Positions 7,917 through 48,000 of a DNA stretch of 64,000 nt are shown piece by piece. The notes under the pieces are model-generated. The model saw only the letters and a list, made by a program, of their open reading frames with translations. It ran no database searches and was not told where the DNA came from. A program made the translations under genes and the position numbers. Origin of the DNA: Liolophura sinensis (taxonomy: Eukaryota > Mollusca > Polyplacophora > Chitonida > Chitonidae); assembly GCF_032854445.1 (NCBI RefSeq), contig NC_088300.1, forward strand, positions 23,231,608 to 23,295,607, written 5' to 3'. Each line of letters starts with the position of its first letter. Position 1 is the first letter of the stretch.

Positions 7917-10900
7917 TCAGTTGTCCAGCATTTCGCCATGATCCGCTGTATAGGGTCCAGGGTCTGTTTTCAGCACATCTATCAACATGTGGGTCGGGAT
8001 CTCTGATCCCCGCACCTGGAGAGTATAACATGCTGTCTCCACCTTCTTCAGACTCTGTCTTAAAACAGTCAGCTTCCTGGATAGCTCTCTGGAGCTATTT
8101 TCAAATGACATGAAAGCCCTGTGGACAGTGCGTAGAAAAACACACAATTTGAAAGGAGAAGTTATGTCCCCTGATCCAATGCAGTTTATGGCAATACGCA
8201 TGAGCTCTCCAGTGAGATCAGCAATACCCAGCATGTAGTCTACTGGGGATACAAACACACTGACTGACTTCTCTGGGTCATCAACTGCAGTTCCACTGTC
8301 ATCACAGTTGTCATCGGGTTCCAGCTTAAAATGTAGATCTTTGGAGACTTCAGCCAGACTAACCAAAGTTTCATCCTGAAGATAGTGTAATAGGGTCACT
8401 GCCTCAATGTATTCCTGAATACCTGTAAATACAAAACACAAAAAGAGCTTGTGCAGACAAGATTACACTGAATTACAAATAAGACTGAAATGTGGCTCAG
8501 ACATGTCAAAGATTAAAATACTGGCAGCAAATAAATGTATATATGTTTGCATGAGTTGTTATGTCGTCCTTAACAATTTTTCAAGCCAAATGACACCATG
8601 TTTGGTGTGCATATATACTGTCTTCTTGTGGCAGGGTGAGTCACATTACACTGAACTCGGTCCTTTTCCCAGGTCTGTTCCCTGGCTCTAACATGGCAGC
8701 AACACTTACCATTTTTAACTCTTTGAACCTGGATTTGATTTCAGATCTCCCAACCTTGAGACAGACACTAACCATTACCCCACCGAAGCATTCAGACAGC
8801 AAATAAAATCTGGAACTATTGTAATTGACTTAATATTTCAACCAAGTTTCTCATTTTGCCTTACTCTATTAAAGAGTTGCCTTGATCTTAACGTGTTAGG
8901 ATTGATTTATTTCATTGGTGCTTTATGCTGTACTCAGGAATATTTCAATTATCCAACAGCGGCCAGACTGGTGAGAGGAAACCGGACAGAGCCTGAGAGA
9001 AACCCATGACTAATGAGTGTGATGAGGGTTCTTACATCAAAGATATATTTCAGCAATTAAGGTACAAGTATTATGCTATGACCTTTGTTTGCCTATAAAA
9101 ATGTACTTTTTATAAGTAAGTACAGTACTAAAAACTTGTAATGCCAAGTAAAGCATCCTATATAACTTGATGTAAACCAAGCGGCAAGAGAAATGTGTAA
9201 ATATGAGATGCACACTCACTTCACAGGATCACGTTGCTGTGCTAGAGTGAAGATATTTCCACAAACACATGTGACAGCTTATATCTGGTTTAATCTACCT
9301 AACATGCCTTAGAAAATGACCACCCACCTGGGGAATAGGCTCGCAGAAACTGGTAGGGGTCTTCTCCAGCCAGTTCCCGAGCAATTAATCGACATTTAGA
9401 CTGACGAAGCTCATGTAACTTCTCTCGGGCTTGCTTCAGGAGATTCTCAGCTTCTTCATCTTCAGATCTTACCATGAATGATAAAATATCATATCAGTAT
9501 ATGTCCATCACAAACAAACTAGGCAAAATAGGTCCAGTTTTATACACAGATGGCCTTACTTCTACTGGCATATACATCTCGCTACTGTGTTGGATTATGC
9601 AACACTTTTGAAAACATTCAAAGAATTATTAAACATAGGTAGGGAACTAACTAGGCTTCATGTAGTATCATGTGCTCTTCTCACATCTTTTATCAACATC
9701 AACCCTCCTAGAATACACCACATATAAAATTCCAGCTGGGTGGAACAAGGTGGTCTGAGCCGTTAAATTTTCAGCCCTGTGCCAGGAATTTTTTGACTAC
9801 TTTAATTTCTCTATCTTTTCACATGTTTGCAAGGGGTTTATTCAAGCATATTCTGAAGGCATTACTCTTTGTAGGCTGATAAAATGACACTTTTTGTGAA
9901 GACTTTGCTCCAGTCAATCCAACCAATATAGTTTTGTCTCCAAAATCAACTTACAAATGTGCACAGATTGCACTGAAAGTGGCTCTTCTATATGTGAAAA
10001 CGTTGAGGAATTATGATATTTCTTGTTCTCATCATTCTCAGTGAAAATGGAAGTAGAATTCACAGTGCACATGATGCAGTTCAGAACAGTTACTATGGTT
10101 ACCCATTAAACTCCTTACAGCATGTGGACTGCTCCCTACATTCCCTTCACATCACTGCCACCACTAGCAAATTTTATACAGAAATCATGAACAACACCAA
10201 GGTCACTGGGGTCACGGTGATGTCATGAAACACAAAACTTTGTCTCAATCTTTGTTTCTAACAATACTTAATACACATTCATTCTCTCTATCAGAGGTAT
10301 GCACAACATGAGTCTAGCCAACACCTAAAGCAATATGTTGTATAAATGGGACATCACCTTGAGCGGTTTCACCTGCCTTACGTGGAGATACACAACACAT
10401 TAAGGATATTCTTATAAGTAAGACTGTAGGGCATGACCTAATTGTCAAAAATCATGCCTCCTCAAAAGCGTTTACTGGCCACTTTCCGCACAGTTTTTGT
10501 TTTCTTAGAAAACATTATCAATACCACACTGTTAATCTAATTCATTTTCAACAGTTATTTTGTCTGGATTATTTCTTGATAAAATTTTTGTGCTACTGTC
10601 TGTATCTGAAGTCTCAGTCATTTAAAAGCAACTATAGTATGACCCACCCACTCCTAAAATCAGGGCGACATTACGACCAACAGATATTTTCAGGATAGTC
10701 TAAACACACTTACCCAGACACCCTTTGCAGCAGGAAGATGACTCTCTTGCTTTCGATGGTGACATCACGGCTCAGTTTTACCAGCCTCTCGTAACGATCA
10801 TGCTTCTTGTCTAGGTCAGCCTGATATGTGTAAAATGCTTGGACAATCGGCGAACAGTCGTCATATTTCTTGGCAGCACTGGAGGACTGATTTCCTGGCT

Positions 10901-11813
10901 GTTTCCTTCTATGTCCTTTATCATCTACATAAAGTCAATAAAGGACATTTTGAAAGCTGCATACAACATGTACACTGCACACACACACACACAAAATAGC
11001 CTGTATCATTGTACCTATATGTAAGCTATATGTATGGTCATATCTAATGAAAGAATGAGGATATTTGAAGAACAATAACAAGTTACTTTAACTGGAACGT
11101 TAAACATCATTGACCTGGAAAATGTCTGATGTAAACAAAGCAGCTTTAAACCTAATTGAGAAATCAATAATATTTGGTCTTTTCAGACCTTGGAATTTCA
11201 TATTATTAGACATAAGACATCAATGTACAGTGTCTATGTACAAACATCTGTCATCCATAGTGTTAGAGTAATAATACAGCCGGTGGACTCCTGTAACTAC
11301 CACTAACCTAGTCTGTTACTGTTGCGCCAATCTCATCTCTCAACACATACTACAGAACGAGTAGACATTAATTAAGAGCTGCTGCTAGCGTTTTAAATTA
11401 AACTCAGTCTTATGAATTGTGTCTTGCACGGTAGCAAAAACATGTCTAATTTAATAGGTCATGTTAATTGCTACTAGTCTAGAGCCTAGTAGGCTTTATC
11501 ACGGTACACTAAGCACGCATGGAACTGGATCGCCTAAGTGAGGCTGACATGTTCACGGATTCAGCCCATACACCTATCGAGAGGCAAAGAGTCACTAGTA
11601 TCCACCATCACGGTGTTGTTGTTGTAGAGAACACTTCCACAACGGTAATGCGGCACCCCTGTCGTGCAGATCTCTATAAGTTCTTCTGGGCCTTACTTAC
11701 ATTGGTAAAGGACACATTAGTGCAGAAAAAGAAATGAAATTGCAACGAAGACTGCACTTACAGGGTTGAGCACGCTCAGACCTTTTACCTTTCACTTTCT
11801 GTTCAGTCGACAT
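7917..11813 (-). CDS. TSNAX: Translin-associated protein X (TRAX), 4 coding exons
   Basis: Partner of translin in the C3PO endoribonuclease, which clears siRNA passenger strands and processes tRNA fragments. Exons in transcription order: 11813-11762, 10924-10714, 9467-9328, 8422-7917. Phases agree and give 302 residues (human 290). Landmarks are KKHDRYERLVKLSRD in exon 2, the acidic GIQEYIEA motif across the exon 3/4 junction, and SPVDYMLGIADLTGELMR; these carry the acidic residues of the TRAX metal site, so the nuclease centre looks intact. RGSEIPTHML near the C-terminus is family-typical. I chose ATG 11813-11811 because it gives a lysine-rich N-terminus like other TRAX proteins; an in-frame ATG at 11879-11877 would add 22 residues. 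Exon 3 uses an AAG acceptor. Confidence 0.93.
8902..9015 (-). mobile_element. SINE-A 3' fragment
   Basis: Plus strand reads TTGGTGCTTTATGCTGTACT, CAACAGCGGCCAGA and GAGAAACCCATGAC, the reverse complement of the SINE-A 3' half. TSNAX intron. Confidence 0.65.
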
Positions 11814-13467: not shown

Positions 13468-16400
13468 CATATATATATATGGCTCTGCATATGGCTGAGG
13501 CAGCCATGTACAACTTACGATTACATGAAGATCAGGCAGCGAATTAGTCGGACTACACTGACTGTTGATTGAGGAATATGTGGATAGGCCATAATCATTG
13601 CTCCTCAGCCTACAGGGAGAGACCCACATCCCTGGACTCACTGTTGACTTTATTTCAGATGGTGGAAAATTATGATGCTATAAACTGATTCCAAAAAATT
13701 GGAATCCCATATACTATCCTCTTAATTTATCTGCTGGTACAACTTCAATCTTCACATTGAATCCAATCCGATAGGAACAAAGAACTTTATAGTAATTCTA
13801 CAGGTAAGTTTAGGTACCATCAGCGCAAACCTAGTTTATTGATCTCTGTTCAGTCGAGTTAGCATTCGGAAATCTGGGGCAAGTTTTTTGAGAGTTGAGG
13901 ATGGACTCAGTGTTACGATAAATGTTAGAATTCTAAAATAGCACACTGAATCTGTCTTGATGTACTAGGGCTTCTCCAGTCCGGTTTCCTCCCTCACGAT
14001 GTTAGCCACTGTCTTTTAAGCGAAACATTCTTGAGAAGGGCATAAAACACCAATCATGCCAAATAAATAAATAAATTAAAAGTTCATTTTTTTCAATATA
14101 TTTTCTGTTGCAGAATCTATAGTTAAAGGATTAAACTCTAGCAAAGATGAAGAAGTTAAGGTGGCAGTACAAAAAGCTGATGAGAAGCTGGCACACATCA
14201 AAGCACAGGCTGAGGATATCTCATCTGAATGCAAGACAGGTAAGCTACATATACATGTAAATCTCACAGAGGTAAAAATGTATGTTTGAGTTCAAATATT
14301 CTCTATAACGGCTAACAGTTAGTCTGATTCAGTCTTCACAGGTCAATAACCCTCATCTTCATTACTATGTTTGTACATGTACATGTACATATTTTGAACA
14401 AAATATCATCAAAATGTTCCTTAGCTGGGCAGATACATACATGTATATGTATTAACTTGTTCTTGCATATTGGAAAGTGTAGCATATATTGTACTTGTAA
14501 ACCTGGAATTAACACAGTGAGGAAAGTGGGCGTTCTCATACATGGAATTTTAAACTTCTCATGTTTCCACTGTTGTTGGCAGTCGCTCGCTTGTTGTTGT
14601 GTGAAATTTGTTGGAGATCGCTCGCCTTCCACTAGTGTGACATGCTACACATGTTTTCCCTTAACTGGCCAAAGAAAACAAAAACACTTTCTTTTTTCAG
14701 GTGTCAACAGGACTGTGATAAATAAATCTGTGAAGGATGAATTTGGTGATCCCAAAATCCAATCTGGAATGTCTCAAGGTAGGTCAAACGTTATACATAC
14801 CTGTATATCACACACTATACCGTCGTACCATTACTTGTATGCATGTTTTTGACATGCTTTATTTCTTACTGTGTTAAGAATTGTTTATGAAAGCCATGGA
14901 GGATGATGCAAAGGAAAGAGCACAGAGGAGAAAAGTGAATGAGAAAGCAGCAACTAAACTTAAAGAGGAGGGCAATGAAGAATTCAAGTCTGGAAATTAT
15001 GAAAAAGCAGTGGAATTATACTCTAAGGTTGGTACTGTAGAAAATTCCTTAAATTACATATACTCATTTACTACAATGTTTTACATAAATGTGGAATTGT
15101 TTTTTAATGCTGTCCATAGATGTATGGATTTACATTCCTCACTCTGTACTTTTTTTATGGCCGAGGGGGTTGTTGCGCCAGCATGGCGCAATGACCCAGG
15201 AGGCTCTCACCAATGCAGTCGCTGTGAATTCAAGTCCAACTCATGCTGGCTTCCTCTCCAGCCTTACACGGGAAGGTCTGTCAGCAACATGCAGATGGTG
15301 GTGGGTTTCTCCCATAATCTTCCTGATTTTCTTCCTCCATAATGCTGGCTGCCGTTGTATAAGTGAAATATTATTGAGTACAACATAAAAACACCAATAA
15401 TATCCATATATTTTATACTAATTAAAGCCATTAAAATGTACTGAGTGCATTATTTGACTCTCACAGTATAAAATATTGTTATTCCAGGCCTTGAACAAGC
15501 ACAGAGACAGCCACGTACTGTACACTAACAGAGCCATGGCCTTGATTAAACTACAGAAATACCAGGAGGCGCTCTCTGACTGTGATTGGGCTCTGAGGGT
15601 ACTGTCATGTTATCATTACCTCTAGATTTAACACTGTGGCTCTAGATTTTTCATCTGCTCTATACAGCTGATGCAAAAGCTTAATTTGCTGTACAGACCT
15701 TTAGCCATGGTTATGTCAAAAACTGACTAGTGCAGCTTCTACAGTGTTGTAATGTATCAGTTTAATTGTAACATCGTACTGTCTGAAATGTTACATCATG
15801 ATGATAGGCTTGGAAAGGAATATTTAACGTTAATAAAATGACATCTAGGTTCTGCTGGCAGACATTTGACGTGTCCCCGTTGTTGTGCCCTCTACCCATT
15901 ACCAATTAAGCCATCATGAATAACCAAAACTGATATTGTTAATCAAGGAGGCAGAGGTCACTACTGTTACATTAGTTAAACAGTATTATTCTGACTCCAT
16001 TTGTACAGGACCAGTAAGTCCCATTGGGACATTACAGTACATTAGATATAAATAAAGTTCACTTCCTTTATATTAAGTCATGTTAGTATATAAACGTGCA
16101 TTATTAGAAAGATAAATCTTCAGTAACATATATCTCTTCTTATCTCCTAGTGGCCTCAGTGTGTATGTGTAGCCCACATGTTAAGATCTGTTTCAGATAG
16201 TAATACTCTGAATATTTTCATTCCAGGCATTCCCCAACGCTACAAAAGCCTTTGTGCACCAAGGCAAGGCATATTTGGCTTTGGGCAACTTTGATGAAGC
16301 TAGGAATAGTTACAAACAGGGCCTACAAACTGATCCCAAGAAAAAGAAAGTGTTTGAGGGTAAGCCTTCACTGTAAAGCTTCTCATTGAGAATGTTTTGC

Positions 16401-19400
16401 TTTAGTTTAGTTTCCGTGTTGATCGTAAGCTAATATTATTTGCTTCTGCAACTCATGAAACAGCAATTCTTTAGGAATTAGTCTTTCTGATCCCTAGCCT
16501 AACAGTCCATCGTGAAGAAAATACTTTGTTGTGGGTAACCCATCCCTTTAAGAAAAGAAAGGGAAGGTCAGTATGGGAATATTTGGTTTTTATTCTGGGT
16601 AAGAGTGAAAATAGAGTCCAGGAATGTCCCAATAAAAACGTTTTGAAACGGTCGGTCAGGTTACCACCAACAAACATATTTTTAATGATGGCCTAAATGG
16701 ACAACATCTGTGTACATATACAGGAGGCCCTGTCTCAGCTATGTTCCTTAAACTATGTATTGTTTTATTGAGTTATTAACCAGTGTTAAAAGGTGATTAT
16801 TTATACTTCATCAACAGATTACCTGGCAGAAGTAGACAGAGTTGAAAGGGCCAAGAATCAAGAGGAAAAAGTGCAAGAGCTGTTTGATTCAGGCTCAGAA
16901 GAAGCAGGTGGCCTTGTTGAGCTTCTAGAGAAAGTAAAGAAAGCAGATCAACTGCCATTGTTCTATGCTGGTGGCTTCCGTGTCATTGCCAAGTTACTGA
17001 CTGGAGGTAAAATAACTTTAGGGGATTGTAGTGTATGTCTTATATTCATCTCTTTACATGTGTGTTGTCTGTTTTATAGTGTATTTGTGACATGCAAAGA
17101 ATGTTGGCTTAAATGTGTCTGGGGAGTGGTAGAATTTTTGGATGACTTTAATCAGGTGGATGTCAAGTGAATATTTTACACTGAATTAATTTATTTAATT
17201 ATTTGATTGGTGTTTTACGTGGTACTCATATTTCACACTTAATGAATGTGCACACATCTAGTGATGAACTTTGCCAAGTAAAGTAGTTGGGGCAAAAAAC
17301 CCTATAGGCTATTGTTCATTCCTACTTGTGTGATAGCAGTTAGTGGGCAAGCTGGTAACAAAGTAATAAGTGATTTGGCCCTTATGCACATTATTTGCTG
17401 TTGTGCGCAAAAATATACTTTTGATTATTTATTTTCTTTTCCAGGCTAAAATCTGTGCTTTGATCAAAGCTATATGCTTATTAGGATTGGTATATGTTTA
17501 CTCCACATACATTAACTGGAAAAATCAAAATGGCTCAAAGACTACATATCTGAATGTCATTTGCCTGTTTCATTTCTCTTCAGAGATAGAGAAGACCCTG
17601 TTCAGGACACAAGGTGGCCTCCGCATTCATGTAGACCATCAAACAGTTCAAAGGTAAAACTAGAAAATAACAACACCTGCATTAAGCCTACATTTGTTCA
17701 TGATGCAAATGTCAATTAATGCCTGTTCCAACCTCCATCAGTATACTGGCAGACTGATGTAGTTTGTGTAGTTCAGGATCAGAAAGGTGGTTTGTTCAGG
17801 GGTCAGTTTCATGAAGCTTTTTTGATAAGTAACATTTAGCTGAGTGCACTGTATACTTGTATACAACATACATAGTCATGGTTGTTAAGGATTCACCGGG
17901 GTTGGGTTTAGTTGGCGAGATTGTGTTTTTTTTGTTGGGCACAAAGTGTTTCAGACTTCATTTAGTTCAGAGATAAACAAGATCATGTGGTGTCTTTGAA
18001 ATATGTGCTGTTTTTGGAACAGTGTTAATTTATTTATTTAATTGGAGTTTTATGCCGTACTCAGTAATTTTCAATAATGCCACGATGACCAACGTTGGAA
18101 TGAATCCAGACAGAGCCTCAGAGAAACACATGACCGACCACAAATTACTGCCAGACCTTCTCAAATACTTCCGAAGAGGAAGCCAGCATGAGTTGGACTT
18201 GACCTCACAGCAGCCGCATTGGCGAGAAACTCCTAGGTCATTGTTCTTTGCCAGACACTAGACTTGGCCATGGAAGCTCCCAGAACAGCATTAAACACCA
18301 GTCAGCTGGATTTCTGTGGTACATAGCGACTTCTGCAGTGGCTCATTCCTCTATATTGTGATTGTTTATTGCTGTACCTGGACCTTTAGCTTAAAGCAAT
18401 TTATGTATCTGTTCACTGATATGTTTCTCTCTTTCTTGTTTGTAGGTGTCTCTCTGCCTCCCCCAGAAGTCTGTCCCAGGAAGAACTGGACCTGTTGAGC
18501 TCAGTTCTGGAACTCTTATCTCAAGCTTGTTTTGACAATGGTATGTTGTGTATGTGTTTGTTTTTGGCATTGTTATTACATGTACATCCACACTGTACTT
18601 CCCATTGAAGAGGTTATATTTTAGCCAGTATTTGTTTGTCATTAAATTTTGATTGTGATTCATATCCACAAATATTTTCAGCGATTCTTCACCATGGACC
18701 TTAGGATAGAATTGCAGAGTGTTTTCCCTTGGTCTGTAATGTGGGAATTTGTATATTTTGCTACAGCAGACTTATATGCTCTCATAGTGCTTTCTGGTTC
18801 TAAGAAGTAAGTTAATGAATATTGTTCATGGGTTGATGTGGAAGGTGAGGTCTATCAGTTGTCCTTATTCCATTCATCTGTAAATGCAGATGATAACAGT
18901 TGCTTGACAGAAGTATGTGTAAAAAAATCATGTCAGCAAATCCAGCCAAAAGTTTCAAATTGAAAATTTACAAGAGAATGCAACAAAATCAGCAGAGGAA
19001 TCTGGCGTACCTAATAAACAACATCACAAATCTGTGCAACATATGACTGTAATGTGTTTTGATTGGACAGAGACGAGTCAGGAGCAGATCCTGGAGGTGG
19101 GAAATCTACCAGCCCAGTTACCAAACTTCCTAGATGCCAAACTCAAGGGTCAAGGACACCATCTGAAGGAGGCCATTGTGTCATTCTTACACTGTCTCTC
19201 ACTTACTAACGTGGGCAGATGCAAAATTGTCCAAAGCTTTGAGCTGTCAAGGTAAAATTCACAAGTTTTGTTAGTGAAAGGCTCAAAACATGATTCATTG
19301 AAGAATATATGATTATTTTCAACACCTTGCTATAAAATCTTCCTTTAAGCTGGTGATCAGTTTTATTCATGGAGTATAAAAGCGATGTGCACAAGGACAA

Positions 19401-22400
19401 CAACAATGTCTGGCAAGTTACCAATAGCCTTTCCCACATGTGATAGAAATGTACAAATATGCACACCATATTGGTGGAAGACGTGGACATCACGTATGTC
19501 AGACTGAGCCTTGTCACCCATGTCACATAGACAGTGAGAACAGGGAACAAATGAGCTCAAAATTAGAATACTTGAATAATAAATTAACCCCGTGTGTCTG
19601 AGCAACACAAATGCCATTTTTGTCCAGTCTTGGACCAGCAGAAGAAAATACATTAGCCTCAAATGCACTTGGTTTAGTGGTGCTGACTGATGACTGCCTC
19701 CTTTAAGATGTACATGTCATGTACAGTCATGGAAAAAATTATTAGACCACTCATATTTTCTTTGGTTTCTTGTTCATTTTAATACCTGGCAACCCTAAAG
19801 GTGTATTAACCGAAGATTACAATGAATACGACAAAAATCCAGCTGATTCCATAATACTTTGTCGTATTTGATATGCTTTAAGGTCATTTGTATTCCTAGG
19901 GTGTATGCGAGACAATTTCATGCTTTCAATTTACATGCAGACTTACATAAAGAGTGGTTTCCTGTTTACATGTAGGCTTACATAAATAGGGGTCTCTTGT
20001 TTATATATTAAGACGCAGCACAACTCGTTAGTTGTCAGCTCTCATAATGCCTAAAATGAAAGAATTATGTGGAGTTAGAAAGGCAGCCATCTTGGCACAG
20101 CTGGATACTGGATTGAGCGAGCGACAAGTGGCCAAAAAACTGAAGATCTCTAAGACAGCAGTTCATTACACCAAGAAAAAGCAAGCCGAACATGGTACTA
20201 CAAAACTGCTAGCTGGTCGAGGCAGGAAACGTCTTTCTACCCCACGAGATGACCGAGCACTCATCCGGTCCTGTATCAAGAATCGTCGTCAGACCTCCAG
20301 AGACCTTAGAAATGAGTGGGCATTGTCAACAAATGTGACTTGTTCAGCAAGAACAGTTCGAAACCGACTTCTTGAAGCTGGTCTAAAGTCGCACAGGGCA
20401 CGGAAGAAGCCCTTCATCAACGAGAGGCAGCGGAAGGCCCGCTTGCGTTTTGCGAGGGATCACAAGAATTGGACTGTTGATGATTGGGCTAAAGTTCTCT
20501 TCAGTGATGAATCCAATTTTGAGTTGATGCCTACTCCAGCCAACTTACTGGTTAGGAGGAAGCCTGGGATGCCTACAAACCAGACTGCCTTGCTCCTACT
20601 GTAAAGCATGGGGGTGGATCAGTGATGATCTGGGGTTGTTTCAGTATGGGTGGAACAGGACAGATGCAGTTGTGTGAAGGGAGAATGAACCAAGTCACAT
20701 ACAGAGCTACTCTTGAAAACAGCCCTCTTCCATCAGCTGCTAAACTCTTTCCTGGCTCGAATGACTGGATTTTCCAACAAGACAATGCCCCTTGCCACAC
20801 GGCAAGGTCAGTTAAAACCTGGATAGAGAACCGGAACATTCGAACCATGAATTGGCCTGCTCAGTCACCTGATCTGAATCCAATTGCAAACCGGTGGAAT
20901 ATTATCAAGTTCAAAATGGAGAACCACAAGCCCAAAAACAAAGCAAATTTGTTCGAATTTTTGCAACAGGAATGGGCTGCTGTGGCCGCAGGGCAATGTA
21001 ACAAACTGGTGGAGAGCATGCCAAGGCACATGGCTGCAGTCATCAAAAACAATGGGCATGCAATCAAGTACTAACTCCCGTGTGAGACTGAGAGTCATGT
21101 GACTACGTGACTAGGAGACAGGAGAAAAAATGAAATGCCAAAATGTTTTTGAGAATACAGTTGCCACATCTACAGATGTATGAACTTAAGTGATTTTGGT
21201 CATTGTCAAGAAAGTCATAGAGAACTGATAGATATCACCTCTTAAATAAAACCCTTATGAACTATTTCTGTTTTCATCACTTTCTTTGCCCAAACAAATG
21301 TTCCTTCAGTTGTGCAAGGTTTTAAAATGAACAAGAAATGGGAGAAAGCAAGGGTGGTCTAATAATTTTTTCCGTGACTGTATGTATATAATTTTTTTTA
21401 TGCAATATTACAGTGTTTGTACAATTTATTTGAAATAATAATTGCGTTTGTCATCAATAGAGTATGCCAAATACACTGAAATATGCCTTTATAATAAAGT
21501 TTGGATTTGTTCTTTATCATTTAATTGGCTTTGTTTTCTTCAGATTGACCAACTGGGCATTTGCCTGTACCCAGTCAAATGTGCCTTTGGCTGTGAATGC
21601 TGTAGGAATGCTGAATAACCTAGCTCTGGACCAAAGGTAAGATAAACATTACTGTGTAAACATACTGTGAAGTAAATCCCTCTACTGGTTCACTTACAGT
21701 TATGAGAGTTTATGGCTATGTGGGTTGGCATGGTCATGTGGGTTGGCATGGTCATGGTTGGGCTGGGATGGGGTGGGGTATGGAGGGGTGTAGGAGAGAA
21801 CTTCTGAATGGCAGTGCATTCGTTCTGTATGTACATGTAGGGACAGTTTATCAATTAGGTTTAAGTACATGTGTGAGACTAATCCGTGTTTTCCACTGAC
21901 AGATTTAGACAACAGATGAGAGATGTCATTGAGGATCAGGTGGTTCCGGCATTTGAAGCACTCATTGTAAGTACATACCTTAGCTGGACTGCCTCTTAAT
22001 GCAGAACAGTTTGAGACAGAAACCTCAAACATGTCATGGTTTGAGAAATTCAGCCTAATGGTAACATGATCCATGCTCTGTTCCCTAATAAAAGCAATGG
22101 ATGGATCCCACATGCCCACAGGCCCAAAAAAACAGACACTTTTCCTTCTTTATCTATGTAAGCATTAAAACATTTTCCTAATCTTTAGGGTCCTCCGTGG
22201 CTCAGTTGGTTAGTGCACTAGCGCAGCGTAATGACCCAGCGTAATGAGTCTCTCACCAATGCGTTGGCCATCTCTGGCCATACATGGCAAGGTCTGCCAG
22301 CAACCTGCAGATGGTCATGGGTTTTCCCGGGCTGTGCCCGGTTTCCACCCACCATAATGCTGACCGCCGTCGTATAAATGAAATATTGTTGAGTATGACA

Positions 22401-25400
22401 TGAAACACCAATCAGAAAAAAAAAAAAAAAAATCATAATCTTTATCTCAGCAAGCAACAAAACATTTTGCTAATGTTTATCTCAGCAAGCAACAAAACAT
22501 TTTCCTAATCTTTATGTCAGCAAGCAACAAAACATTTTCCTAATCTTTATGTCAGAAAGCAACAAAGCAGACACTTTCCCAGTTTTTATGCCCAAGCTTT
22601 ATCTCTGCAAGGAGAAGAATCCACACTTTCCAAACCTTTATTTCTGCAAGGAGAACAATCCACACTTTCCTAACCTTTATGTCTGCAAGGAGAAGAATCC
22701 ACACTTTCCTAACCTTTATCTCTGCAAGCAGAACAATCCACACTTTCCTAACCTTTATCTTGGCAAGGAGAAGAATCCACACTTTCCTAACCTTTATCTC
22801 TGCAAGCAGAACAATCCACACTTTCCTAACCTTTATCTCGGCAAGGAGAAGAATCCACACTTTCCTAACCTTTATCTCTGCAAGGAGAAGAATCCACACC
22901 TTCCTGAGCTTTATCTCTGCAAGGAGAAGAATCCACACCTTCCTAACCTTTATCTCTGCAAGGAGAAGAATCCACACTTTCCTAACCTTTATCTTTGCAA
23001 AGAGAACAATCCACACTTTCCTAACCTTTATCTCTGCAAGGAGAACAATCCACACTTTCCTAACCTTTATGTCTGCAAGGAGAACAATCCACACTTTCCT
23101 AATCTTTATCTCTGCAAGGAGAAGAATCCACACCTTCCTAACCTTTATCTCTGCAAGGAGAAGAATCCACACTTTTCTAACCTTTATCTCTGCAAGGAGA
23201 AGAATCCACACTTTCTTAACCTTAATCTCGGCAAGGAGAAAAATCCACACTTTCCTAACCTTTATCTGTGCAAGCAAAAGAAAAAGTCTTGCCTAGTTGT
23301 TGAAATGTATTTTTGTTTTATATTAATACTGGATCTCTTATTTTAGGAGAAGACTTGTGGCTCTACCTTAGCTGTGTTACCCTCCAGAATCCACACCTTC
23401 CTAACCTTTATCTCGTCAAGGAGAAGAATCCACACCTTCCTAACCTTTATCTCTGCAAGGAGAAGAATCCACACCTTCCTAACCTTTATCTCTGCAAGGA
23501 GAACAATCCACACTTTCCTAACCTTTATGTCTGCAAGGAGAAGAATCCACACTTTCCTAACTTTTATCTCTGCAAGGAGAACAATCCACACTTTCCTAAC
23601 CTTTATCTCTGCAAGGAGAAGAATCCACACCTTCCTAACCTTTATCTCTGCAAGGAGAAGAATCCACACTTTTCTAACCTTTATCTCTGCAAGGAGAAGA
23701 ATCCACACTTTCTTAACCTTAATCTCGGCAAGGAGAAAAATCCACACTTTCCTAACCTTTATCTGTGCAAGCAAAAGAAAAAGTCTTGCCTAGTTGTTGA
23801 AATGTATTTTTGTTTTATATTAATACTGGATCTCTTATTTTAGGAGAAGACTTGTGGCTCTACCTTAGCTGTGTTACCCTCCAGTATTCACATGGTGGTC
23901 AATTTGGCAGGGGATGGCATCATTCGTAAGAAACTGATGAGAAAAGATTCTCTTTGGAAAACTTGTATTTCTGCTCTGGTAAGCCTCACATCTCTTTATA
24001 CATATGTGAAAAAATGGTTGTTGTTTTTTTTCCATTCACTTGTTCCACCCCATTGTTGGTTTTGCAGTAACACCTCAACAGTTATGAATGCTATGTCTTA
24101 GAGTTGTTTTTTCATGAATGTCTCAAATCCCAAGAGGGAGTAAGGTGTAAAACACCAATAAATAAATAAACCAAATCCCAAGAGTCAAAATGTTGGTTTG
24201 TAGAATGAAAGCCTAAATATAGGTTTCCCAGGAATGTCTTTAAGACATAAGACTAAATGTTGGTATGGCTGAAATGTCTCTAACATCATAGGATTCTTTC
24301 TAAATTGTTGGATTTTGCATGACCTCTCATATGGTTCATCCTGAAAATTGTTTTGGCAGGAATGTCTCCAAGATTAAAAGACAGCCAGAATGCTTTTTCT
24401 TTTGTACAGGACCATTTTTCAGATCGTAAGACTCAGCCCCTGATTAGTGAGATCCTCCAAGCTATTCTGGCCCTTTTGGTCAACATGAGTTCTGAGGTCA
24501 GTCCTCAACTTGGTGACCATGCCTACAGCTGCTGTGTGAGCTGCTTGACCCTTACCACACCACCCTGCTCACATCAGGTGGTAGAGAGGTGTGTATGTGT
24601 GCTCAGTCTGGCCCTACCTCACTCACCAGAGGCCGTGGACTGGCTCACCAAGCACTCACATCTTCACCTCTTGCTCACCTCTATACAGGTATGTACATGT
24701 ATACTTAAAATGACACTTGTCAGATTATGTTAAAAGTTCTGATTGTAGGTCCATAAGACACATGCAGAATGTTACCACTGTTAATTTTTTTCACTGTTGT
24801 TTAATGCCATACCCAAGAGTTTTCCACTTGTTGCATATGATTATGTCCTCTCTGGACATACGTAGGTCTGGCACTAACCTCCCGCCATAATGCTGGCTGC
24901 CATTTTGTAAGTGAAATAGTCTGGAGTATGGCGTAAAACATCCATCAAATATGTAAATAAATAAATATATGATCACCTTAAAAAAAATAGCTCACCATTT
25001 ATGCATGCAGATAATAACCTTTTCATTTTTTGGGGTGATAACATTTCATTGTGGATTCTAATACTGTGTGCTCAACCTGACCAGGTTTCACTCATCCGAC
25101 TTGAAATGTCAACACCATCAAGTGAAGAAGTTGTTATCCATGATCTAATTCTTATGTAAGTTCTAAAGTGGTTTAAATAATGGTTTTTACATTGTCTTCT
25201 CCACAAGATGAGCAGAGTTTTTGAAATCAGGGTCTGGTTAGAAGTTTACATGAGTCTTGTTGATGAAGTATCTTGGAAATGTTACAACGTCAATTTTTGT
25301 ATTAGGTATTTGTTAATTTGGTTCTGATTCAAAACAGTTTATTGAGCAGAACATGCACAATATAAAAATTGATTGTACCATTTTTTTTTTGTTCATGTGT

Positions 25401-27498
25401 TTCAGTCTGAAAATTCCAGCCTGGTGAAACCAGCTTTGAAAAGTCTTACAGTTAGTGCAAAAGTCAGTCCAAAGGTTCGCCAGCACATAGTGGACAATAA
25501 TGGTAAGCTTTGTGGGATGGGCCACTGACACATTTTTTAGAATTAATACCTAAAGGTCAGTATCTGATAGAAGGTAAAACCAGAATGCATATATGCCTAC
25601 TCTATAAATTGAATTGCAGTTTATAGTGAAGGAAATGCACAAAGCATTTCTAACCAGGCTACACTGGTTTAATCACAAGGCAACAGGCAACAGTCATTCA
25701 GTGGATGTTGTGTGCTTAGGATACATCAATAAGTGCATCCAGAGATGCTTTCAGTTTCAGCATATTCTCATTTTTATAGGACATTTGATAAAGGGCTTAC
25801 TTGGTAGATCCGAACATTCGGTACAGAGGTGAGGATCAGCAACAAAAGAAGGGAGTGATTCACGTGTGAGGATATAAGAGCCCACAAGGGGCCAGACCCA
25901 ACTTTGAAAATGAGGAATATCCAAAAACGCACCCACATATACTGGGCTGTTCAGACCCAACAGTGCCTGCGATTTACACGATTAGAATATAATATTTGAG
26001 TGGTCTGGCCACAATAGATGTGTAGGGCTAGTCCTTTGGACAATTTTCTATACCATTTCTGTAGATATGATTATACGCATCAGAGCCCTGTGCTTGTACA
26101 AGAAATTTAATGAAGGCTTAATAAGACCAGCTTTTACGGTATGGTTTTAACAGGAATACCCTTCTTGGTCAAGTTGCTGAAGTCTGTGGATGAGAGTATG
26201 GTGGGGAATGCTGCACTATGCCTGGGTTACTGCATAGAGATAAGGGGAATGTGTGCCTCCTTGGCGGACACCACCATCGTGAAGGACTTGCTGGTTCTGG
26301 CCAGAGATGGAAAGATTGCAGATGTTCAGCAGAACTGTGGCATATTACTGGCTAAACTGGCCCAGGGAGACAAAAGGTAGGTGTATATTTGTTCCTGGTT
26401 ATGAAACTGTACTCCTGTTTAATTAAGTACAATATTCCCCCTGGCTCTGCCCTGTTTTCTCCCACTATAATGATGGTCATGGTTGTATATTCTTGAGTAT
26501 GGCCTGAAACTCCGTACAGTACTTTTATATACTCTGGCTTGGACTCAAGACTTGCTACATATACATGTATTGTGTACACTGCTTGAAAGTTTTCGCCAAA
26601 ATGATTCTATACATAGAAAGTAGCACCGTCCGAGAGCTTCTCCTTCAGTGGCCATACAGCCCTCACATTATAGCTCCAAGTTCATTGATCATTGTTGGTG
26701 CTTAGACTGTTTATCTCTATGTAACTTCAGGTCCACGTCAGCTATTGATGGTTTGTACCCTTTCTCATATACGATAATAAAAATGGGGCCTCCCTGTCCT
26801 AAGTGGTTAGCATGCAAGCGCGACGCAATGAACCAGGAGTATCTCACCAAAAGTGGTCGATGTTAGTTTATGTACAACTCATGTTGGCTTCCTCTCCGGC
26901 CATTAGTGGAAATGTCTGTCAGCAACCTGCGGAGGGTTGTGGGTTTCCCCCAGGCTCTGCCAGGTTTCTTCCCACCATGGCTCAGTTGGTAGAGCGTTCG
27001 CGTCCGGGGACGGTAGATCCAGGGTCAGTCCTGGGTCAGCTCACACCTGAGACTTTAAAAAAGGCAGTTGTAGCTTCTTCTCTTGACGTTCAGCATTAGA
27101 GGGATAGTGCAACGGCAGGTTGACCTAATCATTATAATGGCTCAGGTGGGGCGACTTACTAGCCTTTGGTAGGTTGTATCAGTAGATAAAAGAGTGATGG
27201 AAATTCGTCCCCTAACAAGGAGGCACATTACACGTTCATACTTTAAAACTCCTTTATCGTCGGATGACTGAAAAAAAGTATGACGTTAAACCCAAAGCAC
27301 TCACTCACTCTTCCCACCATAATGCTGGCCACTGTCGTACACGTGAAACATTCTTGAGCAGGGCGTAAAACATTAATGAAATAAATAAGTCATGATGATG
27401 TATTTTATTTGTCTTTTTCTTTCAGACATTTAGAACGTCTACGTGAGCTACATGGCATTGAAATACTTCACCAAGCATGTGGAAAGAACATTAAGTAA
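12166..27498 (+). CDS. TTC12: Tetratricopeptide repeat protein 12, complete (17 coding exons)
   Basis: Cytoplasmic factor for assembly of axonemal dynein arms in motile cilia. Exons: 12166-12217, 14114-14239, 14701-14778, 14879-15027, 15488-15598, 16227-16359, 16818-17006, 17584-17653, 18446-18540, 19071-19251, 21544-21636, 21903-21966, 23844-23978, 24410-24688, 25406-25502, 26154-26376, 27426-27498. Every intron is GT-AG and every phase closes; the total is 2148 nt, or 715 residues (human 705). Residues ~86-215 hold EDDAKERAQRRKVNEK and three TPRs (KEEGNEEFKSGNYEKAVELY; YTNRAMALIKLQKYQEALSD; HQGKAYLALGNFDEA). ADQLPLFYAGG follows, then ARM-like helical repeats to the C-terminus, including VGNAALCLGYC and LRELHGIEIL. 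Intron 10 holds a Tc1 element and intron 12 a minisatellite; both sit outside exons, so the reading frame is intact. Confidence 0.95.
12469..13010 (-). pseudogene. Hotdog-fold acyl-CoA thioesterase-like remnant in TTC12 intron 1
   Basis: Read on the minus strand, 12716-12469 stays open to a TAA. It shows the C-terminal half of a 4HBT/hotdog thioesterase: an AKFYDSTRVSAQ strand, GLFRFNMGAMVFE, LLVTKGEATDIVAHIFVEVC, then LHLP and an ALALLQEK helix. Just upstream (12717-12790) the VVKTHYFFTFVKY strand continues in another frame, with a stop at the switch. Further upstream (~12995-12900) TDCHGYCIKFLNAARSDAG resembles the D-x-x-x-H-x-x-Y-x-x-F-L-x-x-AR start of the domain, also followed by a stop. 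Either this is a decayed gene copy or it holds exons of a small nested gene. The match rests on pattern recognition of the family and has not been checked by a search. Confidence 0.4.
13356..13501. repeat. (AT)n tract inside a ~20-bp-armed palindrome
   Basis: A TA run (13358-13378) is followed by the arm CCTCAGCCGTATGCAGAGCC (13388-13407), about 70 bp of nearly pure (AT)n, and the reverse-complement arm GGCTCTGCATATGGCTGAGG (13481-13500), one mismatch. It lies in TTC12 intron 1 and should fold into a long hairpin or cruciform. Confidence 0.85.
13975..14078 (+). mobile_element. SINE-A 3' fragment
   Basis: Contains CCGGTTTCCTCCCTCACGAT, CATAAAACACCAATC and an AAATAAATAAATAAAT tail, ending 36 bp before TTC12 exon 2. 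Confidence 0.7.
15158..15412 (+). mobile_element. SINE-A, near full length, diverged
   Basis: Body carries AATGACCCAGGAGGCTCTCA, B-box-like GAATTCAAGTCC, 'GGTCTGTCAGCAACATGCAG' and an AAAACACCAAT end. The A-box is degraded. TTC12 intron 4. Confidence 0.8.
18028..18245 (-). mobile_element. SINE-A, diverged
   Basis: Begins with the TTTATTTATTTAATTGG tail complement and 'TTTTATGCCGTACTCAG', and runs to 'CCTAGGTCATTG'. Several internal differences indicate age. TTC12 intron 8. Confidence 0.75.
19724..21380 (+). mobile_element. Tc1/mariner-superfamily DNA transposon (DD34E type), defective
   Basis: 1657 bp in TTC12 intron 10, flanked by the TA target duplication (19722-19723 and 21381-21382). 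Terminal inverted repeats start CAGTCATGGAAAAAATTATT on the left and CAGTCACGGAAAAAATTATT on the right. Including an inner matching block (TTTCTTGTTCATTTTAA) they extend about 59 bp (19724-19782 and 21322-21380). The element lies in the same orientation as TTC12 and carries one broken transposase gene. The nearly matching ends suggest a fairly recent insertion. Confidence 0.95.
20047..21074 (+). pseudogene. Tc1-type transposase, frameshifted and catalytically altered
   Basis: The first open stretch (20047-20604) encodes the N-terminal paired-like helix-turn-helix (LSERQVAKKLKISKTAVHY), a GRGRKR linker of the GRPR type, and the first catalytic aspartate in FSDESNF. Near 20566-20570 one base appears to be missing; the frame then ends at TAA 20602-20604. 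The remainder continues one frame over to 21074 with VMIWGCFS, the second aspartate in QQDNAPCHTA, and SPDLNPIANRW. In active Tc1 enzymes that last block reads with Glu (PIENxW). Here it is Ala, at the exact 34-residue spacing from the second Asp. Two independent defects therefore make it inactive. Confidence 0.93.
22132..22187 (+). repeat. Diverged minisatellite units left of the SINE insertion
   Basis: Two weak units ('ACTTTTCCTTCTTTATCTATG', 'CATTTTCCTAATCTTTA') match the repeat that resumes at 22436, showing that the array was once continuous and was split by the SINE at 22188-22435. Confidence 0.6.
22188..22435 (+). mobile_element. SINE-A copy inserted in the minisatellite
   Basis: tRNA-like head with an A-box (TGGCTCAGTTGGTTAG), body, 'AACACCAATCAG' end and poly(A) tail. 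It is flanked by the direct repeat TAATCTTTA (22179-22187 and 22436-22444), read as the target-site duplication. The head carries a short internal duplication (ACCCAGCGTAATGA). Confidence 0.88.
22436..22575 (+). repeat. ~35-bp variant of the TTC12 intron-12 minisatellite
   Basis: About three to four units of the type CATTTTCCTAATCTTTATGT + CAGCAAGCAACAAAA. They align with the 39-bp unit that follows but are four bases shorter, so they look like an older or precursor form. Confidence 0.75.
22610..23280 (+). repeat. 39-bp minisatellite, first block (~17 units)
   Basis: Unit: AATCCACACTTTCCTAACCT + TTATCTCTGCAAGGAGAAG, with GAAG/GAAC, CTTT/CTCT-type and TGCAAGG/GGCAAGG variants. It lies in TTC12 intron 12. 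Since 39 is a multiple of 3, three frames stay open for 200 or more codons (for example NPHFPNLYLCKEK on the plus strand), but I regard these as by-products of the period, not genes. Confidence 0.95.
23281..23387 (+). pseudogene. Duplicated intron end plus first 41 bp of TTC12 exon 13 (decoy exon)
   Basis: 107 bp identical by eye to 23778-23884: the last 66 bp of intron 12 with its polypyrimidine tract and TAG acceptor (23344-23346), then 41 bp of exon 13 (23347-23387, ending in CCCTCCAG). After that the sequence drops straight back into 39-bp repeats. If the copied acceptor were used, the exon-13 frame would run on through the repeats (RIHTFLTFISARR units) to a stop near 23793, truncating the protein. 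Confidence 0.85.
23388..23777 (+). repeat. 39-bp minisatellite, second block (10 units)
   Basis: Ten units, beginning directly after the truncated exon-13 copy. The last units match the last units of the first block, including the same variants, so both blocks and their right flank came from one larger duplication. Confidence 0.93.
24797..24968. repeat. Two opposed SINE-A 3' fragments
   Basis: 24797-24830 is a minus-strand SINE-A end (GTTGTTTAATGCCATACCCA). 24868-24968 is a plus-strand one (CCGCCATAATGCTGGCTGCC ... GGCGTAAAACATCCATC plus an AAATAAATAAATA tail). Joined end to end in TTC12 intron 14. Confidence 0.6.
26785..27390 (+). mobile_element. SINE-A split by a SINE-B insertion
   Basis: The SINE-A head and body run 26785-26978 (GGGGCCTCCCTG ... 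CCACCAT) and resume at 27309/27321-27390 (AATGCTGGCCACTGTCGT ... GGGCGTAAAACATTAATG plus an AAATAAATAAG tail). The interruption is the SINE-B at 26979-27308. TTC12 intron 16. Confidence 0.9.
26979..27308 (+). mobile_element. SINE-B nested in SINE-A
   Basis: tRNA-like head GGCTCAGTTGGTAGAGCGTT, GGTAGATCCAGGGTCAGTCC, the body GATAAAAGAGTGATGGAAAT, and TATGACGTTAAACCC with a (CACT)n end. Flanked by TCTTCCCACCAT (26967-26978 and 27309-27320), a perfect 12-bp target duplication. Confidence 0.9.
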
Positions 27499-45000: not shown

Positions 45001-48000
45001 CGCTAGAAAAGCTGATGGGGAGATATAACAATAATAGCTGGACCAAGACGACTGGAGTAACAAAACTGTCAAACGCCATCTTGCTGGTGTACGGTGCCGT
45101 AGTTTGCCAAGGTAAGACGACAATCTAATACCACTTGATTTTCGGTCCTACATGCTTATGATATCTGAATGGGGATGACAGCTCCTTCTCAAGTAACCTG
45201 TAGACTGATATACCGTTACTTCTTGTGATGCTTTTCGTCATGGAATAACTTCATATATTTCCATATATACTTGATGAGTGTCACAAATAATGAAACTTCT
45301 CAGACATGCGAAACGCGCTACGATATGCTTGTATGCAATCGTGTCAAAGTGCCATTAGGACAAAATCCTTCGCCTATTCATACATATCACATATCATCGT
45401 ATCATCGTTCAGACATACATATCACTATCAAAAAGCCTCAGGTAAGATCAGCATAGGCTTACTGATTCTTCATTTTGTGTGTGATTGTTAGATAAAGAGT
45501 TATTGTTATTTTTATCTCTTTATCTTGGCATAATTAGCTTGTTGGTACAAAACAAATCCTAAGTTTGTTATATCTTGATTGTTGTTTTTTTCACCTGCAG
45601 CCAGTCCCTTCCGGCCTCAGAGCGTGTCTGGCAGAACCTTGGTAGCTTTCTGGTGGCTTTTCGGTATCGTATTTGTCAACACATTTTCAGCTTATATGAT
45701 TGCTAGCCTGGCGGCGCCGTCAACCAAACATGACGTCAGTTCTCTCAAAGAACTCGTTAATTCTCCAAACTACAAGTGGGGGATGTTAGGCAGTACAATA
45801 TTCCCATTCATTCTAAAGGCAAGTGTCATCTTAATTACGTAGGTTCGACATACAAATATGCATTTTTACACAGTTTCATTGTGGAGTATGTGTATGGGAT
45901 TACATTTTGTGTAAATCTTGCCACTTTCCTGTTGATGAATTCAGTTAGAGCCTAATCCATACGTGATGTAATATGATGACAACACAGCATCTTGAGTAAT
46001 GTGATGACAACACAGCATCTTGATGCAGTGTGATGACAACACAGCATCTTGATGTAATGTGATGACAACACAGCATCTTGAGTAATGTGATGACAACACA
46101 GCATCTTGATGCAATGTGATGACAACACAGCATCTTGATGTAATGTGATGACAACACAGCATCTTGATTAATGTGATGACAACACAGCATCTTGAGTAAT
46201 GTGATGACAACACAGCATCTTGATGTAATGTGATGACAACACAGCATCTTGATGTAATGTGATGACAACACAGCATCTTGATGTAATGTGATGACAACAT
46301 AGCATCTTGATGTAATGTGATGACAACACAGCATCTTGAGTAATGCTAACCCATTTAGGCCTAATAAATTGCAGTTAACAGCACGGCGTTATTTTTACGT
46401 AATTTGGCTTAAGGGGCGTCTAATCGAGCTGCTACTATTTTAGCATCCATATGAACAGTTAGAATAAAGCCCTAACTTAGGTAAATTGACAAGAGGCCGG
46501 ATTTCACTGGTTACTTCAGACCATGCATTTGCCAACTATAACACTGTCGTGACGTCGCTGCTATGTTTAATTCTCTGTGATGTAGATTTAATTATAAAAT
46601 TGCTTGTCTGTTCACCTAACTGGCCTGATGTTTAAAACGTTAGCTGGCTGCTACTATCAGACTGTTGACCAATGATGTGCCGAGTTCGAATCCAGGTCAA
46701 GGTGTTTCAGCATTGACTTTAAATCTGGAGATTTACCAACTTCTTGTCATGGCGAAAATCAGTGGTTTACTCCTATAAACTGGACCGCCGTCATGTAAGT
46801 GAACAATTCTTGATTATCACCCTAAACATCAGTCAAATATATGGAGAAATACATATATGCGGTGTTTTGTCCACGTACAGAACTCAAAAAAACCAGTGTT
46901 TCAAAAACTTTGGCAAGGGATATCAAAACTGAGTGAAGAGGATGAATCGATTCTCAGTGATGATTTTGAAGTTCATCTTCAGAGGATGAGGACTGAGAAA
47001 TATGCCTATATAGGACCTGTGCCTGCCTTGAATTTTTACAACGCCAGTCACTGTGAATTCAGGAGCGGGCGGGATTCCTTCTTCACAGCTCGCTATGTGT
47101 TCGGCCTGCCGAAGAATTCGCCATATACAGAAGTCATCTCCAGAGAGTGAGTGAGAGGCTCAGCGGCCACTTTCATAAAACCTTCCATGCTCTCTTTTTG
47201 CGTAGCTTACTCTTAAATCATCTCGAAGTCGGGAGACCAATCAAACCCGGGTTAGTTCATACCAAAGTTTTTGGTAATGGTACTTGTTGTGTCGTCGCTT
47301 GGCGCTCAGTACTCAGAGGTTAGAGCAAAGAAACAGGACTGGTTGACCCAGTGTCAGTTCTAATGTGACTGGGTGGAGTGTCATCTCTTGTATTTTGATG
47401 ATACTTCAGTTTCGGCAGCACTTTGTCGGCATGGGTTCGCCAGGCCACAAGAAGACAGAGCATATGTACACACACCTAATGACTCCTCGTTGTCATGCTA
47501 CTGGATCCTTGGTGACAATAAGCGATCCATGGTGTTAACACATTGTGATAGCTGGCGCAGTCTAGCGTTGGACCACTAGTCTTCTTCGAATTAGATATGG
47601 TTTGCATATCTGTACGTCATATGTGGGAAAGTTCGTCAGTAACTTGCCAAAGGCCTGTGGTTTACACCGGACACTCAGAATTCTTCCACCGAGAAATCTG
47701 ACCGCCTTCGTACCAACTTCACGGAACTATTGCCATAAGCTTTACGACCATGTTAGATTAACATCAATATCTAGAAGCAAACTATATAGGCCTATATCGT
47801 AGCACATTATCTTCTAGTTTTTGTCTCCCCCAGCTGGAAGCTGGATAACTCTTTCACACTCGCCCGAGCACAACAAACGCCCCTGCCTTTATGATGACCT
47901 ACTCGGGCATAATGGTTAATCGGTAGAACTTGATACTTCAGAAAGATCCTTGATGGCCAAGATCTGCTCGAGCAATGACACATTATCGTGTGGTAGTACT

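Follow-up and report, generated by a model that had tools for sequence, protein, structure and literature searches.

Introduction

Tandem repeats lying over exon-intron boundaries, known as 'mirages', have been described in the lancelet genes Adh3 and TnC and in the globin genes BflGb6 and BflGb9, with similar duplications in PGBD5 (PMC3087553, PMC3902484). In the lancelet cases the short unit itself (10-160 bp) spans the boundary, the units of the BflGb6 mirage are 81-100% alike, and splicing is reported to be undisturbed (PMC3087553, PMC3902484). Related events have been linked to intron gain. The potato RdRp gene acquired an intron by tandem duplication over an intron end and the following exon start, which copied the AG, the tract and a putative branch site, and an exonic GTAAG became the donor of the new intron, as confirmed by RNA-seq (PMC4974935). 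In Drosophila, tandem duplication of coding sequence that contains a proto-splice site has likewise been named as one source of novel introns (PMC2891723). Intronic arrays have also been reported next to exons. Earthworm metallothionein genes contain minisatellite-like repeats in their introns, and one clone carries exon duplications absent from the transcript; copying of an exon end together with a repeat array does not feature in the portions of that report on which we draw (PMC12783039). In ABCA7, the length of an intronic VNTR correlates with exon skipping, and the sections of the report cited here describe no copied splice site (PMC5954066).

Here, we describe a duplicated splice boundary in the TTC12 gene of the chiton Liolophura sinensis, within a window of 64,000 nucleotides (the whole stretch of DNA analysed; positions 23,231,608 to 23,295,607 of contig NC_088300.1, forward strand), to which all coordinates refer unless another sequence is named. 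As in the lancelet mirages, a tandem duplication across a boundary in a normal gene has given rise to extra splice-site copies. Unlike in the mirages, the 39-bp repeat unit is itself free of any boundary; the boundary rides with the intronic array as part of a composite of 284-497 bp, present in two copies only, and the host is a mollusc. As in potato RdRp, the duplicated segment extends over the end of an intron into the start of the next exon, but the TTC12 copy lacks a good donor. With ABCA7 the locus shares an intronic tandem repeat that may influence splicing. A search of titles and abstract openings in the open-access literature found no molluscan mirage.

Exon 13 is very probably a genuine exon of TTC12

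TTC12 has been described as a cilia gene. The gene in the window was identified as TTC12 from the TPRs in its N-terminal exons (Pfam) and a C-terminal ARM region, collinear with human TTC12. A tblastn search with a human TTC12 sequence gave 17 rows. Five are collinear pieces with E values of 3.4e-5 or less (14878-15123, 15485-15598, 16242-16361, 16766-16999 and 26165-26377), two are weak collinear pieces at 17589 and 27424 (E 2.2), and the remaining ten lie elsewhere with E values of 0.98 or more. With this query, no row fell in the stretch of exons 12 and 13 (numbered as in the original prediction), nor did any Pfam family match the exon 12-14 stretch, translated with the start of the next exon as it stood before correction to 24410.

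Evidence for this part of the gene comes from reading phase and from a joined alignment. Exon phases agree at ten paired TTC12 junctions within the window. The phases of 16818 and 26154 were worked out by hand, the phase-fitting donor was chosen where several were possible, and the junction after 18540 was left out of the pairing. When the four exons around the duplication were joined in phase and aligned with the human ARM region, the score was 76, against a best of 67 among 500 shuffles, none of which reached 76. Given the agreeing phases and an alignment above all 500 shuffles, exon 13 very probably belongs in frame to TTC12, as a true exon of its ARM region. The junctions and the two exons that frame intron 12 are as follows.

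16359/16818, 17006/17584, 17653/18446, 19251/21544, 21636/21903: TTC12 junctions in phase, left five
21966/23844, 23978/24410, 24688/25406, 25502/26154, 26376/27426: TTC12 junctions in phase, right five
21903-21966, plus strand: upstream TTC12 exon (exon 12), ending in phase 0, donor GT at 21967-21968
23844-23978, plus strand: real TTC12 exon 13, 135 nt, 45 codons, phase 0-0, donor GT at 23979-23980

Several other elements were noted around the gene. Exons of a translin-family gene (Pfam PF01997), which we take to resemble TSNAX, lie on the minus strand at 7917-8462 and 10710-10934, upstream of TTC12 and divergent from it, and the two genes probably form a head-to-head pair. A Tc1/mariner-like transposase occupies a TTC12 intron at 20032-21074 on the plus strand, across two overlapping frames, the first of which matches PF01498. 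To the right of TTC12, a Pfam search with the frame at 46803-47150 gave no match. The genome itself looks molluscan: a row of eight haemocyanin beta-sandwich domains (PF14830), a family of molluscs, occurs on one contig, and eight units in a single gene would point to a gastropod. The 14 control genomes gave 0 hits, a comparison that does not extend to other animals.

An exact 284-bp duplication links a minisatellite to the start of exon 13

Intron 12 holds a SINE-like element, a short 35-bp array and a minisatellite interrupted by a copy of the exon boundary. These features, from left to right, are listed below.

22187-22412 (ends approximate), plus strand: SINE-like dispersed repeat, beside or within the 35-bp array
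22436-22566, plus strand: 3.7 tandem copies of a 35-bp unit whose sequence is related to that of the 39-bp unit
22597-23280, plus strand: 39-bp minisatellite, upstream block; 17 full units at 22598-23260, then a truncated last unit
23104-23387, plus strand: upstream copy of the 284-bp duplication, from the array end through the intron end and the decoy acceptor to the first 41 bp of exon 13
23281-23346, plus strand: copied intron end with the decoy acceptor, AG at 23345-23346, first exonic base 23347
23347-23387, plus strand: copied start of exon 13, 41 bp
23387-23388, plus strand: exon/array junction with a 2-bp AG microhomology
23388-23779, plus strand: 39-bp minisatellite, downstream block; a 19-bp part-unit, nine full units at 23407-23757 and a truncated last unit
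23601-23884, plus strand: downstream copy of the 284-bp duplication, continuing into the real exon, AG at 23842-23843, first exonic base 23844

The minisatellite is made of head-to-tail 39-bp units with variant copies (30.6 copies, 84% matches), and a genome search, which skips very common words, returned six matches to it, all at the TTC12 locus. Between 21900 and 24400, no hit to an Rfam family attained the gathering score of that family. The SINE-like repeat is numerous in the genome, with at least 41 copies among the matches listed (40 of 5715 first-look candidates scored). TAATCTTTA flanks the element on both sides and also belongs to the 35-bp array unit, so that a target-site duplication cannot be told apart from the array. 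Outside the gene, a second minisatellite was observed at 45964-46345, with a 29-bp unit (13.3 copies, 94% matches) and higher-order periods of 86 and 114 bp.

The original prediction had pointed to matching copies of 107 bp, at 23281-23387 and 23778-23884. These copies are real, and the identity is longer: 23104-23387 equals 23601-23884 exactly over 284 bp, at an offset of 497. The run contains four full 39-bp units, a truncated unit, the intron end, the TAG acceptor and 41 bp of exon 13, in support of the earlier proposal that repeats, intron end and exon start were duplicated as one unit. In the upstream copy, the exon stops after CCAG at 23387 and the sequence continues from 23388 as AATCCACACC, the middle of an array unit. 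It thus runs directly into the array, as had been described, although the ten further units then counted are a part-unit, nine full units and a truncated one. Among exact repeat pairs of at least 30 bp and at most 5 kb apart, with simple words excluded, the 284-bp pair is the longest of the 83 that start in 22400-23800; the longest starting elsewhere in the whole window measures 75 bp. The intron-end/exon boundary gave two matches in the 609-Mb genome, both at the TTC12 locus, in a search that skips very common words; this search of one assembly found the boundary on no second contig.

To the left of the exact run, the correspondence is looser. A comparison of 22891-23103 with 23388-23600 shows 12 differences in 213 positions, whereas the 284 positions of the exact run show none (Fisher p 3e-5). 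For the first five full units after the junction, three neighbouring upstream registers fit equally well, with 10 mismatches each, so the left end of the duplication cannot be placed. The duplicated segment would therefore measure at least 284 bp, and 497 bp (22891-23387 copied to 23388-23884) if a single simple tandem duplication took place. Any one of three processes would account for the difference between the two parts: units gained or lost afterwards, conversion affecting the right part, or a different allele as the source of the copy.

Two further ideas were set aside. A large homology at the junction was considered, since 8 of 14 positions agree there, but 76 of 4329 exon-by-unit registers reach that figure, and we claim the 2-bp microhomology alone. 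Descent of the array unit from the exon-13 acceptor was not supported: the common part is only AGGAGAAGA, and among the 80-bp segments of the window tested outside the array, 2.4% score as high as the 18 obtained here.

How ordinary such an event is was gauged with 15 pieces of 10 kb from elsewhere in the same genome. A tandem array (period at least 10, score at least 200) is present in 12 of the 15, and in one piece (L021) an array contains a perfect copy of 281 bp at offset 366. That array, L021:7906-8949, has a 61/122-bp period and shows that higher-order duplication of this kind also affects a background locus. Because arrays are common and one of them contains such a copy, the duplication event itself is ordinary. 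Identical duplications of a few hundred bp within arrays are not rare in this genome; it is the reach into an exon that stands out.

Decoy and real acceptors are equal in score

The prediction that two acceptors now share one context was borne out: decoy and real sites agree at every position of the 243 nt that end with the AG and of the next 41 nt. Owing to this shared sequence, both score 3.9 with a matrix built from 11 other TTC12 acceptors. The matrix left out 14879, which is uncertain, and the acceptor of the exon near 19040, which was not found. For this gene the real site is weak: it ranks second lowest of 12 TTC12 acceptors, above 15488 (2.3), when the other acceptors are each scored left out of the matrix. 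Four AGs in intron 12 outscore it, with last bases at 22485 (6.2), 22520 (6.6), 22555 (9.0) and 23387 (6.0), three of them in the 35-bp array. We also considered the array as a string of 3' splice sites, as every unit has a CTAAC, a pyrimidine-rich stretch and an AG, yet there is no enrichment: the real-site score is reached by 3 of 84 AGs in the array, by 4 of 117 other intron-12 AGs (the two acceptors excluded) and by 334 of 3696 plus-strand AGs in the window.

Splicing to the decoy would open the following frame.

23347-23793, plus strand: hypothetical decoy reading frame, 148 codons, TAG at 23791-23793

The open frame and its basic repetitive tail (29 K/R and no D/E in 135 residues) are as originally predicted. 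The openness is weak evidence, since in the downstream block of the array only one forward frame contains stops, 11 of them, and the other two contain none. From 23347 to 23978, ahead of the real donor at 23979, no GT matches 6 or more of the 9 donor consensus positions, and AATAAA and ATTAAA are absent from 23347-24156, the first occurring at 24157, in the next intron. With neither a good donor nor such a signal before the real donor, use of the decoy would yield an exon of 632 nt, against 135 nt for the real one. Its stop would lie 185 nt before the exon end. By the usual 50-55-nt rule for nonsense-mediated decay (NMD), RNA spliced to the decoy is therefore predicted to be an NMD substrate and not to carry a stable terminal exon.

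The downstream acceptor is probably the one mainly used

We consider it probable that minisatellite turnover left a mirage-like copy of the boundary as a nearly neutral by-product, and that the downstream acceptor is mostly used. A tandem duplication in the intronic minisatellite, recent or recently homogenised, would have overrun the array end into the TTC12 exon, leaving a complete copy of the 3' splice site with 41 bp of exon, followed by more repeats. Microhomology-mediated or slippage rejoining may have connected exon 13, broken off behind CCAG, to an array unit entered at AATCCACA, and later turnover or conversion of units may have produced the mismatch contrast between left and right parts. 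Normal mRNA would then rely mostly on the downstream acceptor and the good donor 135 nt away, and any use of the decoy would give the 632-nt exon with its early stop, leading to NMD. Several observations speak against this reading: the contrast of 12/213 and 0/284 mismatches does not fit one uniform event, the two sites score equal, the real one being weak, and the stretch of exons 12-14 drew neither a Pfam nor a tblastn match in the searches above.

Where flanking introns are large, the splice sites closest across the exon are reported to be preferred; in human genes there is an overall preference for the upstream 3' splice site, which under exon definition, where the flanking introns are long, becomes 'significantly reduced' without a plain reversal (PMC9225289). 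Given the preference for sites closest across the exon, the distance to the donor (135 versus 632 nt) and the reportedly intact splicing of lancelet mirages, the real acceptor is presumably the main one, and the decoy may see minor or moderate use.

A larger role for the decoy, in which a real fraction of transcripts uses it, TTC12 output falls through NMD and array copy number acts as a polymorphic modifier, seems to us rather unlikely, though it is the alternative that best survives. The 3' splice-site context shared over 243 nt upstream, the weakness of the real acceptor, the overall upstream preference in the human survey (PMC9225289) and the effect of an intronic VNTR on ABCA7 splicing (PMC5954066) all point towards it. 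It requires, however, that a 632-nt exon be defined in competition with one of 135 nt, and splicing is reportedly intact in lancelet mirages (PMC3087553, PMC3902484). In a further and quite doubtful reading, the minisatellite alleles of intron 12 would set the splicing of a cilia gene like a dial: those carrying the copied acceptor would divert part of the TTC12 RNA to NMD or to in-frame extra exons, and array turnover would create and remove competing 3' splice sites in populations.

An assembly artefact or haplotype mis-join is highly improbable. Tandem arrays with a 284-bp perfect copy are hard to assemble, and one lancelet mirage appears to be aberrantly assembled in the draft genome (PMC3087553); against this, the parts meeting at the junction have almost no homology, which would be unexpected of an overlap-based mis-join, the left parts of the copies differ at 12 of 213 sites, and the genome search placed the boundary on a single contig. 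Even less probable is early intron gain, whereby the decoy acceptor and a donor in the copied exon or array would delimit a small extra exon and the array beyond it would become a new intron. The geometry is similar to that of the potato RdRp duplication (PMC4974935), and a GT at 23374 would give an in-frame exon of 27 nt, but this GT matches the donor consensus at only 3 of 9 positions and none inside the decoy exon before 23979 reaches 6. Least credible is the original proposal, a stable alternative terminal exon whose product would end in a basic repetitive tail, in favour of which stands the 148-codon open frame: no AATAAA or ATTAAA occurs in 23347-24156, no donor reaches 6/9, the stop does not end the exon, and an open frame is unremarkable where two of three are open. 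To call the locus a 'direct view' of exon creation overstates what is a candidate exon predicted from sequence.

Implications

Our best reading of the TTC12 duplication is that of a mirage-like boundary duplication in a mollusc. A copied splice boundary of this kind is a caution for gene prediction. As the two acceptors agree over 243 nt on their upstream side and 41 nt on their downstream side, the locus offers a natural test of whether donor distance and exon length alone choose between identical sites. Taken together, our data suggest that boundary duplication as seen in the lancelet mirages extends to a mollusc whose genome is rich in minisatellites, and that an ordinary intronic array can carry along a whole splice acceptor.
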